A DNA stretch of 34,717 bases from an uncultured bacterium (GTDB taxonomy: Bacteria > Verrucomicrobiota > Kiritimatiellia > PWTM01). The notes beneath the pieces were generated by a model. It was not told where the DNA came from. It did not search any database and was given only the letters and a program-made list of their open reading frames with translations. Of this stretch, positions 3,590 to 31,088 are shown one piece after another. Every line of letters starts with the position of its first letter. The first letter of the stretch is position 1. The DNA is taken from positions 1 to 34,717 of the forward strand of contig CAKZPT010000074.1 in assembly GCA_937139365.1 (NCBI GenBank). The letters are read 5' to 3'. Both the position numbers and the translations under genes were made by a program.

Positions 3590-6500
3590 ATGTGGCCGTG
3601 GCGTCAATGCCTTTGTGCACTCGCGGTGGTTGGCGCCGCCGACACTGGCAAGGGCGAGAATGCTTGCGCGGCGTTCCGCCTCGCCATCGCCGACCTTGCC
3701 GCTTCCTTTCCCTCCCAGTACACCAACGCGCCCGCCTATCTCGCTCGCCTTGACGTGATCGCTGCGGACCTGGCGCGGGACGTGGACGTCTCGGCGCCCC
3801 TCGAAGCGCTGCGGCGGGAGGCGCTGCTGACGAACCCGCTGTTGGATTTCGACCAACTCCTCGTCGTGCGCCGCTCGGCGCAGCAGATGGGGCTCCCCGC
3901 CAATTGGCAGGGGAACTCGAGCCTGCGGCGGACGGGCTTCGCCAACGAAATCGCCGTCCTATCGAACCTTCGCAGCGGCGGAGATCTGACCACGCTCTAC
4001 CGTCCGCCCGGCGGCGAATTCGTCGGAGACCTCGAGCCCGACTTCGACGCCTCGCGGCTGCTCTTCTCCATGCCCGCCGGCGGCCGGGCATGGCGCGTGT
4101 CGAGCTGTCGTTCGCAGACGGCGCCCAGCCCGTGGAGCTGCCCCTGATCCCGGACGACGACGTCGACAACTACGATCCGTGCCTTTTGCCCGACGGCGAT
4201 GTGATCTTCGCCTCGAGCGCACCCTTCACCGGCGTGCCCTGCGTGGCCGGCCACGATCACGTCGTGAACCTGTACCGCTGGCATCGCGCGGACGGCCGCA
4301 TCCGCCATCTCACGTTCGAGCAGGACCACGACCGGTGCCCGACTGTGCTGCCCGATGGCCGGGTGCTGTACCTGCGCTGGGAGTACACCGATCTGCCGCA
4401 TTTCGTGTCGCGAATCCTGTTCACGATGAACCCCGACGGCACCGCGCAACGCGCCTTCTACGGCAGCAACTCCTACTGGCCGAACGCGCTGTTCTACGCG
4501 CGACCTGTGCCCGGCGATCCGGCGCGTTTTTTGCCGTGGTCGGCGGGCATCACGACCATCCCCGAATGGGTGAACTGGTCCTGTTCGATTCGCGGGGCGG
4601 ACGCGTCGAGGCGGAGGGCGCCGTGCAGCGGATCCCCGGCCGAGGCCGTCCGGTCGTGCCGGTGCTGCGCGACGGGCTGACGAAGGACAGCTGGCCGAAA
4701 TATCTCCATCCCTGGCCGCTCGGCGACTGGCACGCGCTGGCGGCGGCGCGGCCCTCGCCGGCATCGGAGTGGGGCTTGTACCTGGCCGACACGTTCGACA
4801 ACCTGGTCCTGATCAAGGAGATCCCCGGCGAAGCCCCGCTCGAACCGATCCCGCTTGCGCCCCGTCCGCGTCTGCCGATGCCGCCCTCGAGGGTCGGTCC
4901 GGCCAATCGCGACGCGATCGTCCAACTCGTCGATGTGTACGCCGGCCCGGGGCTTCGCGGTGTGCCGCGTGGCACGGTGAAGCGGTTGCGGCTCTTCACA
5001 TACCACTTCGCCTACCACGGCATGGGGGGGCAGGTAAACCGCGTGGGACTGGACGGACCCTGGGACATCAAACGGGTGCTGGGCACCGTGCCGGTCGAGC
5101 CGGATGGGTCCGCGCACTTCCACGTGCCTGCCAACGCCCCCATCGCGGTGCAGCCGCTTGACGCCGAGGGCGCCGCGCTGCAGCTGATGCGGAGTTGGTT
5201 CGTCGGGATGCCGGGCGAGATCGTCGGCTGTGTCGGCTGCCACGAGCGCGATGGCACCGCGCCGGCGTGCGTGCCCGTTTCGGCCCTCGGGCGCGCGCCG
5301 TCGAACATCGAGCCCTGGTACGGGCCCGTGCGGGGGTTTTCGTTCGAGCGCGAGGTGCAGCCGGTGCTCGACCGGCATTGTGTTGGGTGCCATGACGGCG
5401 CGGCGCCGGACCATCCCGATTTCAGCCGGCGTCCGGGGACAACGCCGCCGGGACCACCGAACGACTACCAAACGGGGTCCTGGTTTCCGCCGTCCTATCT
5501 TGCGCTGTACCCCTATGTGCGCGGACCTGCCATCGAAAGCGACATGCACCTGCTCCGGCCAGCCGAATACCGCCTCGACGACCCACCTGGTGCAGATGCT
5601 GCGTGCCGGGCATCACGGCGCCGCGCTGGAATGTGAGGACTGGGACCGGCTCATCACCTGGATCGATCTCAACAAGCTCGCGCACGGCAGCTGGACCGAA
5701 ATCGTCGGCGTGGACGCGGCCTCCGCTTCACGGCGCCCCGGCGCGGTCGTTGTCGCCGCCGGGCAATCCGTGGGGCCCACGCTCGAGGGGTGGCCGTTCG
5801 ACGCCGCGGAAGCGCGGCGGCGGCAGGAAACCGGCGGTCCGCCGCAACGGACGATCGACCTCGGCGGCGGCGTCACGCTGCGCCTTCGCCGCATTCCCGC
5901 CGGCCGATTCGTCGCCGGCAGGTCCGCGCCTCGGGTCGTGAAGATTGCTCAACCATTCTGGATGTCCGCCTGCGAGATCGACAACGCCCAGTTTGCGCGG
6001 TTCGATCCCGCCCACGACAGCGGATTGGAAACGGGAGATTTCCTGCAGTTCAGCGAGGCCGAACGCGGGTGGCCGCTGAACGCCTCGAACCAGCCGGTGG
6101 TCCGGGTCTCGTGGCATCGGGCCATGGAGTTCTGCCAGTGGCTGTCGGCGGCCACCCGGGAATCGTTTTCGCTGCCGGACCAGATGCAATGGGAATACGC
6201 CTGTCGGGCGGGCGCCGCGACCGAACTCTGGTTCGGGCCGGCGGAGGCGGACTTCGCCCAATTCGCGAACCTGGCCGACGCCGCTTTCTGGCGTGTCGAG
6301 ACCTTTCCGCCGTGGGGGTTGCCGTCGGGGGCGACCGACCCCTACCGGCCGGCGGTGACGACGGAGGCCGACGGTCACCGCGTCAGTGCGCCGACCGGAT
6401 CCTTTCGCCCAAATGCTTGGGGGTTGTACGACATGCACGGAAACGTTGCGGAATGGACATCGTCGCCGTTCGCTCCCGGCGGCGGTGCCGACACCCCGCG

Positions 6501-6643
6501 CGTGGTCCGGGGGGGGATCGTGGTCCGAGCGGCCGCGGTGGGCGGGCGCCTCGCGGCGCGTTGCGTATCCGCCTTGGCAGGCCGTGCATAACGTCGGTTT
6601 CCGCGTGATGTGCCCTGAGCTCAAGGTGGCGACCGCGCCATGA
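3590..6643 (+). pseudogene. HzsA-like cytochrome fused to FGE/SUMF1-like domain, four frameshifts
   Basis: Reconstructed across frames this is a secreted protein of about 1,015 residues. It has a signal peptide (MWPWRQCLCALAVVGAADTG), an HzsA-like beta-propeller/middle region (DPCLLPDGDVIFASS, LPDGRVLYLRWEY), two CxxCH heme-c sites (5229-5243 and 5379-5393), and a C-terminal FGE/SUMF1-like domain (MSACEIDNAQF, MQWEYACRAG, MHGNVAEW). The reading frame changes near 4100 (one base missing; restoring a T gives Val-Phe-Glu), at a T6 run 4527-4532 (T7 would restore), near 5571 (+1 or -2), and at a G8 run 6509-6516 (G7 restores RGGSWS). Each side matches the family, so the gene was functional recently. 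HzsA-like here means the fold only; no hydrazine synthase beta/gamma partner is present. Substrate unknown. Confidence 0.85.
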
Positions 6644-19818: not shown

Positions 19819-22499
19819 TCACCGCGCGGGCGTCTCGTTCCGCCATGCGCGGATCTCGTACAAACGGGCCTCGGGCCGGCCTTCCGCGCGCAGGATTTCG
19901 AGGCGCAAACCCTGGGCGGCCGTCTCCGCGAATTCATGGCGCCGAAACCGGCGCCAGTTGCCCTTTTCGTCGGCGAGCGGGATCCGTCGGCCCCTCTGCT
20001 CGTGCGAAGAGACGGTAGTCGGCCGCCGTGGCCGCGCCGGAGGGATCCACGGAGGGGAAACGGCCAAAGATGTGAAGACGAGCGTCACGGTGTTGATCGG
20101 CACGGCGCGGCCCCAGTCCACCTCGATCCATTGAGGCAACCCCTTTGCCGAATCGCTCCGCCACTGATGTGCCGAGCCGTCCGCGGGAACGCCCACGCCA
20201 TCGATCGCCACTTCGGGGTCCCGCGCTGCGGACGGGTTCCGGGTAGCCGAGCGGACGGATAAGATCAACTCCGCGCGCCTCCGTCGAGCCGCCGGGGCTG
20301 CCGTAGAGCTGGCGGCCGCGGTGACGGTCGGTGAACGACCACGACAGCCCGCTGGCCCACTTCAGAAGACGACGGTATTCCTGGCGTGGAATCAACGGGG
20401 AAGGGAAATCGAACGCCACCCATCGAAAGTCGCCCGGGATCACTTCAGTGCGCGCGGACAACGTCGGCGCCCCTTCGCTGCTCAGCTCGATCTCCGCGAC
20501 GACGGGGTGCCGGTCCGCGGCGGCCAACCGCGGATGGATCCGGCGAACCCCCACCGTGGAGGCGGCGACAAGCTGCACGCGGTCGCATGTCATCGGCGCG
20601 GGCTTGGGGGCGCCGTCCTCCAGTGGCGTCACTTCAACCCATCCATCGGGCAGGCTGCTGGAGGCCGTCACGCGCGCCCCGCGGCAAACGTCGGCGGGGT
20701 CGTCGTCGGGAATGCCGGGCAGCCACCAGTCCCATCGGTGCAACAGCCGTTGCAGATCGCGGATCGCATCGGGGTACAACCCGCGCGGGCCGCAGCGGCG
20801 GTCGCGGCACAGGCGTGCGGCCGCCCCGAGGGCCTGCCCCAGCATTCCGATCGTTTGCATCGGGCGGGTGCTGCCCAGCGCCACGTGGGTGACGCTGACG
20901 TGGCGGCCCGCGAGGAAGAGGTTGTCGACGTCGCGCGCATACGGGCATCGATAGGGATAGTGTACGGCGCCTTCAGGTGCGTGAAGATGGCCGGCGGGAT
21001 ATCCTTTCCGCGAATGCACTGCGGGGGATGGATGTCGATGGGCCAGCCGCCGTACGCCACGGCGTCCCGGAAGATCCGGCCCCCTTCCACGTCGTTCTGG
21101 GTCAGGATGTAGTCGCCAAGAAACCGGCGCGATTCGCGCTTGCCGCCGACAATGAACACCGCGGCCAGCTTGTAGTGGGTGTTGGCGGCCCGGTGTTCGG
21201 GATCGTGGTTCTTCGCCCAGTCGAAGGCGCCGGAAATCACTCGAAGCAGTTCGTCGCGAATCTCCTCCGCCTCCACGATCGTGTCCCGCAGCCCGCCGTA
21301 TTCGATCCACCACGTCCCGTGGATCAGGTTCTGACGCCGTTTTGTGAAGTGCTCGGCGGTGAACCGGACCGCGAAGGGCGGCGGCGTGAACGGCTGCGGC
21401 TCCGCCATTCGGGTCGAGTGGTGAAGGATGGAAGTCCCCATCGTGTGCCGGGTGGGCTGTTCCGGCGCGCGCGCCTCGTCGCGCTCCGAACGCGCTTCTT
21501 CGCCATGCCGGAATGTGCATCCCGCGGCGGCCGCGATGACGCCGTCGCCGGTGCGATCGGCAAACAGGGGAGCCTCCAGCCGATACCGCGCGCCGGCGAC
21601 GATGTCCTCCGCCTCGATGGCGATGATGCGACGACCGGCCATCACGGGACGGACGGCCTCGGTGTCGAGGTGGACCTCGAGGTTTGGCGTGGCCGCCACC
21701 ACCAGGTCGATCGCCGCGCTCCAGTCGCCGCCGGCCCGGTGAAAGCCCTCGGCGATCTCCTCGCAGATACCCGGCTCGCGGAACGGCAGCACGTGGCCAC
21801 CGGCTCCTCCCGGCCCGACCCGGATTTCCCGACTGGCATTGCCGCCCGGCACCGGGGCGGTTCTGGACCAGCGCCGTCCGCAAACCCAGCCGCGCTGCCT
21901 GGACGGCGGCCGCGACACCCCCGTATCCTCCGCCCGCGACGACGAAGTCGAACCGCTGCGTCGTGACGCGGTACGGCCCCGTCAGTTCCTCGCGGAGGCG
22001 GGTCAGCTTTGCGGGGTCATCGGGCGGCCGCCAGTCGCCGTCCGCACACAGCAGAATGGCGTCGCAGCGGCCGTAGTATCCCGTCAGGTCCTTCAGCCGA
22101 ACTTCCACGTCGCCGACGGGCAGGTCGACGATGCCGCCGTCCGCCCACGCCCAACCGCCCTTGTAGGTGCCAAGGGTCACGGTGGACGCCCGCCCGCCGA
22201 GCCAGACCTGAAATCGGCCGGGCGAGGTCGGATCCCAGTCCTTGCAGCGAACCCACATCCGCCACTGTCCGGCGCGGGACATCCGCAGGCGGGTCACCGC
22301 GTCGGCCACCGGCTCGCCCGTGCCGGCAGCGATGAGGTAGGTCGAGAGCCCATCTGCTGACGAAACTGGGCGTCCACGGTCCAGCCGCCGATGTCGCGGA
22401 ATCGTTCGGCTCGAGCATCAGCGCCTCCGGCCGGCTGGCCGCCGGGGCCATGCCGGCCACCCCGAGCCCCCACAGCAACGCCCACCCTGTGTGCTTCAC
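19819..22499 (-). pseudogene. Secreted FAD-dependent oxidoreductase with discoidin-like C-terminus, about seven frameshifts
   Basis: GTG 22499, 5 bp after GGGAGG, begins a signal peptide (WALLWGLGVAGMAPAAS). In reconstructed order follow an N-terminal domain (WRMWVRCKDWDP), the FAD Rossmann start FVVAGGGYGGVAAAV, the oxidoreductase body (FADRTGDGVIAAAAG, ARDVDNLFLAGRHVSVTH), and a C-terminal beta-sandwich (GLPQWIEVDWGRAVPI). Frame changes occur near 22400, 22346, 21855, 20954, 20260, 20073 and 19990. Each is consistent with one missing or extra base, and the family sequence resumes at once after each. The ancestral protein was about 890 residues. Its substrate is not known; relatives are common secreted PVC proteins. 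Confidence 0.85.
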
Positions 22500-28493: not shown

Positions 28494-28567
28494 TTGCCTC
28501 GCTCCGTTGTCCGGCGCGGTCCCTTCGGTCCGTCCGCGTCGACAATCCTCGCTGGCGCAAAAGCCGG

Positions 28568-28613
28568 TTCCAGCCTTTGGAAGATGGAAGGCCGTCGGCC
28601 TCCAAGGGTTGGA
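28568..28613. repeat. Pair of intergenic inverted repeats
   Basis: TTCCA-N5-TGGAA (28568-28582) and, 18 bp on, TCCAA-N3-TTGGA (28601-28613), in the 213-bp spacer between tRNA-Val and the second HzsA-like gene. Similar TTCCAA/TTGGAA hairpin-type intergenic elements recur in verrucomicrobial genomes as I recall them; only this copy is visible here, so dispersal is untested. Confidence 0.45.
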
Positions 28614-28706
28614 CGCCGAGGGGGCCGGCCGCGCGTTGTGTCCATCCGCCCTTTCCAATACAAAGGTAGACAGCCGCGGTCACGCGCGGTCACAGGGAGC
28701 AGTGCG

Positions 28707-31088
28707 ATGGGCTGGACGCGACATGCCGTCCCGGCCGTCCTAGCTGCCGCATCGGCGGCCATCGGAGCGCCGCCGGGAGGCCCTCCGGAGCCTAAGGGAC
28801 TACTCGATTCGGTGCTGTCCGGGCCGTTGCGAGGGGTGGAGGAGGTCGTCTTCGTCGTCCGCGTTTCCGGTCGCGACCACTGGTACGGCAATTTCGGCAA
28901 CTACGCGAGCGACCTGGACGATCCGCGCCGACTGGCGTTCAAGTTTGAAGACGGGGTCTACTGGGCGTATGGCGAGGGCGCCCGGCTGTGCCGGTTGAAC
29001 CTCCGCACGCGGGAGCTGCGCGTGCTGCTCGACGACCCGCGCGGAGGCCTTCGCGACCCCTAGGTCCATTACGACGGCGACCGCACTCTGTTTTCGTGGC
29101 GGCGGGGGGGCACGCACACCTACCGCCTGTACGAAATGAAGGCGGACGGCATGGGGATCCGCCAAATCACCGACGGGCCCGACGACGACATCGAGCCGAC
29201 GTGGCCGCCGGTTCGTCAACTGCTGGCACACGCGCGTCGGCCAGCTCTACACATGCAACGGGGACGGCAGTGGGCTTCGCATGCTCTCGCCGAACATCGA
29301 ACACGACAACACGCCATGGCCGCAGCCGGACGGTCGCGTGCTGTACGTGCGCTGGGAGTACGTGGACCGTTCGCAGCTCGATTATCACCATCTCTGGACG
29401 ATCGATCCCGACGGCACGCAGGTGCTGACCTTCTTCGGTAACCAGAACCCCGGCAACGTCATGCTCGACGCCAAGCCGATCCCCGGCACGCCGCTGGTCG
29501 TCGCGTCGTTCTCCCCCGGCCACGGCCGCCCCGAACACGCCGGCCGGCTGACGATCGTGGATCCCCGCTTCGGGCCGGACCGCCTCGAGTCGGTCCGCTA
29601 CATCGGCAACCGATCGAACATCCGGGATCCGTGGGCGTTTTCGACCAACGGTTTCTTCGCGGCGGACGACGAGGGGATCATCGTGATGGACGGCGACGGC
29701 CGCCGGGAGGTCGTATGGCGCCTGCCGCCGGAGGAGGCCGCGGCCCAGCCGCGGCGTCATGCGCACGAACCGCGTCCGCTCGTGCCGCGGCCGAGGGAGG
29801 CGGTCATCCCGGATCGGGTGGACCTCTCAGAGGACACCGGCGAGATGATCCTCTTCGACGTCACCCTCGGCCGAAACATGGACGGCGTGCGGCCGGGCGA
29901 GGTCCGAAAACTGTTGGTGCTGGAACAACTGCCCAAGCCCCGTCAACTTCTCCGGCGGCATGGAGCCGTTGACGCTGCACGGTTCGTTCACGCTGGCGCG
30001 GATCCTCGGCACAGTGCCGGTCGAACCGGATGGCTCGGCCCGATTCGAGGTGCCCGCGCTGCGGCCGGTGTTTTTTTGTCGCACTGGACAAACGCGAGCT
30101 CTCGGTGAAGCGCATGCAGAGCTGGTGCGGCGTCCAGCGGGGGGAGCGGATCGGCTGCGTCGGCTGCCACGAGATGCGGACGCACGCGATGCCGGCCGGC
30201 CCGATGCCCGCGGCGATGCGGCGGCCGCCCAGCCGGATCGAGCCGATCCCGGACGTGCCCTCCGTAATGGATTTTCCGCGCGACATCCAGCCCATCCTCG
30301 ATCGGCGCTGTGTTCGTTGCCACAACACCGAACGCTACGCCGGCAAACTCGACCTGGACGGCGGCCGGACCGAGATGTGCAGGGTTAGCTACGAGAGCAT
30401 CGTCCGGCGGGGTCTGGTCGCCGACGGGCCAAACCGCCCCAAAAGCAACTACCCGCCGCGCCAGATCGGCTCGTCGGCCAGCCGTCTCCTGCAGGTGCTC
30501 TTGGCGGGCCACCACGACGTCCAATTCGATTCCCGCGAGCTGAAGCTGCTTCGGCTGTGGATTGAAACCAGCGCGACCTATCCGGGCACCTATGCGGCGC
30601 TCGGCAGCGGCCGGGTGCCCGTCCATTTGCCCGGCAACGCGATGCACCGGTGTGCCGACTGTCACCTGCGCGAGTCCAAGGACGACGCCGGCAAGCCTGT
30701 GAAGACCTGGAACATCGGCTGGGGCGGGCGGCTCTGCAACCTCGATCGGCCCGCGGCCTCTCTGCTGTTATGCGCCCCGCTGGGCCGGGAGGCGGGCGGA
30801 CTCGGCCTGTGCGGCACCGACGGATGGACCTCGACGGCCGATCCCGGCTATCGGGCCGTGCTGGCCGCGATCGTCGCCGCCTCGAACGAGCTTCAACGCG
30901 TCAAGCGGTTCGCCATGCCCGGCTTCCGGCCCAACCGGCATTACGTTTGTGAGATGCAGCGGTTCGGCATCCTGCCGGCGAACCTCGCCAACGCCGACCC
31001 GGTGGATCCCTACACGACCGACGAGGCCTACTGGCGCAGTTTCTGGTGGCAGCCGGTTTCGTCGGCACCACGAACGGCCGGATTCTGA
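28707..31088 (+). pseudogene. HzsA-like multiheme cytochrome, nonsense plus frameshifts
   Basis: Starts at ATG 28707 with GGGAG upstream and a signal peptide (HAVPAVLAAASAAIGAP). Reconstructed, it is an HzsA-like protein with a propeller part (VVFVVRVSGRDHWYGNFGNY, DGRVLYVRWEYVDRSQ) and three CxxCH sites: CVGCH 30156-30170, CVRCH 30309-30323 and CADCH 30651-30665. Lesions: TAG at 29061-29063 where relatives have Gln (CAG to TAG); near 29210 about 45 bases are missing, with a frame change, between IEPTW and FVNCWHTR; an extra C in 29938-29941; and T7 at 30071-30077 where T6 restores VFFVALDKRE. Unlike the first HzsA-like gene it has no FGE domain. Periplasmic redox role inferred; substrate unknown. 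Confidence 0.85.

Follow-up and report, generated by a model that had tools for sequence, protein, structure and literature searches.

The signature enzyme of anammox is hydrazine synthase (HZS), whose origin is a matter of debate. In its alpha subunit, HzsA, Tyr591 is the proximal residue at heme alpha-I (PMC12607021). Alpha/beta-gamma pairs have been described outside anammox and inferred not to be hydrazine synthases (Hagglund et al. 2025, PMC12758564). In other HZS-like clades Trp stands in place of HzsC His144, as it does in CCP/MauG (PMC12758564). PVC bacteria also produce the PSCyt cytochromes, heme proteins with CBM modules that are encoded near sulfatases and for which a role in carbohydrate metabolism has been proposed (PMC5615132). 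No published description of a class of HZS-alpha proteins bearing a formylglycine-generating-enzyme (FGE) domain, or of an HZS-alpha–FGE fusion, was found among open-licence papers.

A gene combining these parts was examined in a 34,717-nucleotide stretch of DNA (the window) from an uncultured bacterium of the class Kiritimatiellia. Its reading frames were compared with those of an intact homologue, L007 (1143 aa), which has the identical order of parts and 68–89% piece-by-piece identity to it. The frame changes four times, leaving five frame pieces with no stop inside any of them (Table 1). The initial annotation had described an HzsA-like heme protein, broken four times, with an FGE/SUMF1-like C-terminus. 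The breaks, the HZS_alpha domain with its propeller region and two CxxCH motifs, and the PF03781 match in the C-terminal part bear this description out. Both CxxCH motifs, whose conservation the annotation had proposed as a check, are invariant in an alignment of 44 homologues (alignment A1). Since L007 has the same order of parts and the heme motifs are kept in 44/44 homologues, the architecture of the window gene is not due to chance. Over 1013 codons dN/dS against L007 is 0.167, and the differences by codon position number 138/106/383. These values, together with the stop-free pieces, indicate that until recently the window gene encoded a protein under selection. The coding region is probably a recently inactivated gene. 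Its surroundings show no conserved synteny with the L007 locus or with stretches from congeners.

Table 1. Coordinates of the HzsA-like gene, its parts and its frame changes, and of a second HZS-alpha gene in the window
Feature	Position	Strand	Evidence
HzsA-like (HZS alpha) coding region with C-terminal FGE-like domain, five frame pieces	3590..6643	+	frames, Pfam, dN/dS vs L007
N-terminus MWPWRQCLCALAVVGAADTG, possible signal sequence (weak)	3590..3650	+	read from sequence alone
Beta-propeller region (HzsA N-terminal propeller)	3850..4925	+	PD40 hint E 0.0075; L007 AF2 strands mapped; 5C2V and TolB matches
Frame change 1	about 4096..4102	+	comparison with L007
Frame change 2, T6 run	4527..4532	+	sequence, comparison with L007
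HZS_alpha domain, PF18582	4971..5246	+	Pfam E 4.7e-34
CxxCH 1 (CVGCH), HzsA heme alpha-I equivalent; H+4 is Gly, no Tyr591 equivalent	5229..5243	+	sequence, alignment
CxxCH 2 (CVGCH), HzsA heme alpha-II equivalent	5379..5393	+	sequence, alignment
Frame change 3	about 5570..5572	+	comparison with L007
FGE/PvdO-like domain, PF03781, without copper cysteines	5893..6613	+	Pfam E 4.1e-29
GNVAEW motif in FGE/PvdO-like domain	6440-6457	+	
Frame change 4, G8 run	6509..6516	+	sequence, comparison with L007
GGSWSERP motif in FGE/PvdO-like domain	6512-6535	+	
Second HZS-alpha gene, no FGE-like tail seen, split over several frames	28494..31088	+	

The structure of L007 was modelled with AlphaFold2 using alignment A1 as input (pLDDT 83, pTM 0.84). 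In a Foldseek search of the PDB the first match was HzsA (5C2V_A; 805 columns, E 4.4e-25, TMt 0.60), followed by PvdO (TMt 0.73, at the C-terminus), FGEs, TvpA and TolB. Sequence profile comparisons concur on both the HzsA likeness and the FGE/PvdO-like tail. As judged from these profiles and the predicted fold, the window protein is a distant relative of the anammox HZS alpha subunit. With HzsA of Kuenenia (PDB 5C2V) the family shares the propeller, PF18582 and two CxxCH motifs in the same order, as well as beta and gamma counterparts in the form of a fused homologue nearby or in the same genome. It differs from HzsA in its extra FGE-like C-terminus, its sulfatase-rich hosts, a sequence identity of 16% and the loss of the proximal tyrosine. 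The Tyr591 position was set at CxxCH His+4 by profile alignment with HzsA; Tyr is found there in 0/44 homologues of alignment A1, which have N, G, S, R, H, Q, D or T instead.

Homologues were sought with the middle piece as query in 84,980 species genomes, which gave 175 relatives, and 80 loci were kept. Their records are from Planctomycetota, Verrucomicrobiota, Lentisphaerota (Lentisphaerae), Hydrogenedentota and Armatimonadota; a few are labelled Bacteroidota and one Gammaproteobacteria. The records labelled Gammaproteobacteria, Labilibaculum and Alistipes (L032, L055, L064, L068) reflect transfer or mis-binning. Reconstructed homologues that do not run into a contig end measure about 970–1630 aa and have two CxxCH motifs, with FGE motifs in nearly all. 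A minority carry LamG, CBM6, NPCBM or F5/8 modules of carbohydrate-binding type. Paralogues of HZS-alpha are very strongly expanded in two sulfatase-rich genomes of the same class, with 27 PF18582 matches in G006 and 23 in G013. In a tree built from 95 HZS-alpha regions by a quick method that warns of long branches, a single branch with a support of 100 groups all FGE-bearing proteins together. The only member of this clade scored as lacking the domain, L122_17932, is the L112 gene truncated where the retrieved stretch ends. Because the FGE-bearing alphas form a single clade, the fusion looks like one old event as far as this tree can tell. c-type hemes mature in the periplasm. The heme motifs and the signal-like N-termini of homologues such as L067 make a secreted protein plausible.

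At 11/61 homologue loci the flanks encode a protein of about 640 aa. In profile comparisons, columns 61-407 of this protein match HzsB (E 7.5e-42) and columns 423-579 match HzsC (E 2.8e-35); di-heme peroxidases are matched as well. This beta-gamma protein has two CxxCH motifs, the first followed by the invariant Trp of an NWD motif. Its gene lies tens of bases downstream of alpha at L058 and L068; in G007, G014 and G040 the two are kilobases apart on the same contig, and in the window genome beta-gamma is on a different contig from the window alpha. Adjacency at 11/61 loci is far above chance, as by our own estimate about one or fewer would be expected from a few copies per ~3 Mb genome. Beta-gamma was found in 12/13 alpha-bearing genomes tested; five alpha-less genomes gave one weak partial match. 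The flanks also contain 24 further HZS-alpha stretches, at 14 loci. Thus a fused HzsB+HzsC homologue is tied by position and occurrence to the alphas, which is new here. The family displays the defining trait of the published HZS-like systems, an alpha beside a fused beta-gamma, and resembles their clades I–IV (PMC12758564) in this co-localisation, in the loss of the heme alpha-I Tyr and in the Trp in gamma. In contrast to those pairs, for which no FGE/SUMF1-like or sulfatase domain is mentioned, its alpha has the FGE-like tail and its beta-gamma has just two CxxCH motifs.

Our preferred reading, with a probability of about 0.5, is that the gene encoded the alpha-like, diheme subunit of a periplasmic HZS-like redox complex serving (sulfated) polysaccharide use, with an FGE-like binding module, and was recently inactivated. 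Alpha and beta-gamma would form a complex in which the diheme, CCP/MauG-like site of beta-gamma donates electrons to a substrate, or takes them from it, at heme alpha-I or close by. Binding of a glycan or a partner would fall to the FGE-like (C-type-lectin-like) tail, together with the LamG, CBM6 and NPCBM modules of some homologues. The strongest competitor is a cytochrome of electron transfer or extracellular electron transfer without catalysis, in which the propeller and the FGE-like domain serve for docking. Two c-heme motifs, paralogues numbering up to 27 per genome and the lack of known catalytic residues all fit such a cytochrome. However, the linked CCP/MauG-like diheme partner and the strongly conserved surroundings of heme I (MPGE..SCVGCH) point to a role beyond electron transfer, and we consider a purely electron-carrying role possible but well short of probable.

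A link to polysaccharides is suggested indirectly, by the genomes in which the family occurs, by the carbohydrate-binding-type modules of some homologues, by gene neighbours and by the shared decay of HZS-like genes and sulfatases described below. Among 58 related genomes, at least ten sulfatase candidates are present in 14/14 alpha-bearing genomes versus 19/44 others (p 1e-4), and the number of alpha copies follows sulfatase density with a Spearman coefficient of 0.61, both values ignoring kinship. Several sulfatase-rich genomes have no alpha. The neighbours of homologues include genes for GH78 (rhamnosidase), GH32, IclR and sulfatases; a sulfatase-signature match lies near alpha at only five loci, two of them doubtful, so linkage in the immediate flanks is weak. 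Downstream of the alpha gene in the window are Gfo/Idh/MocA oxidoreductases and a sugar-isomerase-like TIM barrel. The planctomycete-type PSCyt cytochromes (PMC5615132) have a like setting of heme, CBM and sulfatase, as an analogy only since the families differ (PSCyt/PSD). The alpha/beta-gamma complex may serve the use of (sulfated) polysaccharides. More tentatively, and with the odds against it, PVC and allied bacteria could use a widespread HZS-derived three-part heme complex with a glycan- or partner-binding FGE-like tail to carry out on (sulfated) polysaccharides an oxidative step as yet undescribed; the complex would be gained and lost with sulfatases.

In the genome that contains the window (G000; 2.82 Mb in 117 contigs, 97% complete), 6/6 HZS-like genes, five for HZS-alpha and one for beta-gamma, are split over frames. 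Of 17 such genes in three congeners, 12 for alpha and 5 for beta-gamma, none is broken (0/17) and each reads in a single frame, with one alpha at a contig end. PF00884 sulfatases, counted after grouping pieces by our own rule, are broken in 18/40 cases in the window genome versus 4/89 in two congeners (p 8e-8). Of 12 large core genes of the window genome (rpoB, rpoC, aminoacyl-tRNA synthetases and translation GTPases) none is broken. The four breaks could be sequencing or assembly errors in a gene that is intact in life. Two of the four fall in homopolymers, which makes sequencing error conceivable for some, and a dN/dS of 0.167 would suit an intact gene. Errors should strike core genes also, which they do not (0/12, versus 6/6 HZS-like genes and 18/40 sulfatases), and we regard this explanation as unlikely. 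Because random sequencing error does not predict breakage of HZS-like and sulfatase genes with intact core genes, the breaks look mostly genuine, the product of selective decay. The main alternative to genuine decay is a consensus of mixed strains. A codon-usage HMM was also tried as evidence for frameshifts (2.6 per 10 kb here versus 0.6–1.0 in controls) and was dropped because many calls were antisense confusion; the enrichment in HZS genes by this measure reached only p 0.055. An FAD-dependent oxidoreductase (PF12831) gene at 19934-22309 (-) in the window is seemingly split over frames too. The sole anSME-type sulfatase maturase match of the genome (G000:C84:32307-33437) is interrupted by two stops, which may leave the remaining sulfatases without maturation. 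On the reading of genuine decay, the lineage would be shedding polysaccharide capacity together with its sulfatases.

From the FGE-like domain the initial annotation had proposed a redox modification of an extracellular partner, to be checked at the copper-binding cysteines, whose positions were set by alignment with S. coelicolor FGE. The inspection upheld the fold and not the copper site. The first copper Cys is absent from 44/44 homologues (D in 38, E in 3, Q, A or N in the rest); the second is present in only 8/44, with Ala in L007 and in the window domain, which has neither cysteine. The family therefore has the PF03781 fold and C-terminal GGS motif of S. coelicolor FGE (6MUJ) without the two Cys that should follow GGS(Y/W), and unlike that enzyme it is fused to a diheme protein. 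Profile and structure comparisons gave their best scores to PvdO (5HHA) and PorK/GldK (9MZU), the nearest solved relatives of the domain, with true FGEs behind. Unlike the window family these relatives are stand-alone or secretion-ring proteins without hemes. The FGE-type modification was thus not sustained; a redox role with a partner is plausible, the likely partner being the HzsBC-like diheme protein. In the window genome no copper-Cys pair was seen in three FGE-domain matches, and the motif scan left a broken copy on contig C91 unresolved. The genome's other non-HZS FGE-domain protein, L129 (G000:C96:30632-31267), reads RGGAWSERDPAIC, with the first copper cysteine missing. In a Lentisphaerae-type subclade (L060, L061, L067) the tail reads RGGSWCDRPFRC, with a Cys pair whose first Cys is off the FGE copper-cysteine position.

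Because the FGE/C-type-lectin-like fold serves both as an enzyme and as a binding or structural part (PorK/GldK, TvpA), we favor, with moderate confidence, a binding module for the tail. The domain might instead be an active FGE- or PvdO-like oxidase or modification domain that, with the hemes, oxidises a cysteine or other residue of an extracellular partner. Its fold is intact and strongly conserved (GGSWxDRP, GNVAEW, HDSR), PvdO is annotated as an enzyme, and beta-gamma resembles CCP and MauG, a protein-modifying enzyme. With the first copper Cys absent from 44/44 homologues and the second from 36/44, and with the same fold in non-enzymatic parts such as PorK/GldK and DGR variable proteins, an active oxidase is distinctly unlikely. 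A true hydrazine synthase, or another N-N forming enzyme outside anammox bacteria, is highly improbable: homologues of all three HZS subunit types are present, but no Tyr591 equivalent is found in 44/44 homologues, heme gamma-I of the partner is followed by a conserved Trp, and a Trp replaces HzsC His144 in other HZS-like clades, and the published analysis came to the same negative (PMC12758564). On these alignments HZS chemistry and FGE chemistry are both unsupported for the family. Since the hallmark catalytic residues of neither parent enzyme are kept, the protein probably had another redox job.

A multi-phylum HZS-alpha subfamily with its own C-terminal domain and a beta-gamma partner shows that relatives of HZS exist in carbohydrate-degrading bacteria. 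In PVC genomes, neither HZS_alpha matches nor FGE annotations should be taken as signs of anammox or of sulfatase maturation. The intact copies in many genomes offer a concrete system for testing the function of HZS relatives, and the fact that HZS-like genes and sulfatases are broken in parallel in one species gives a hint of the pathway that they served.
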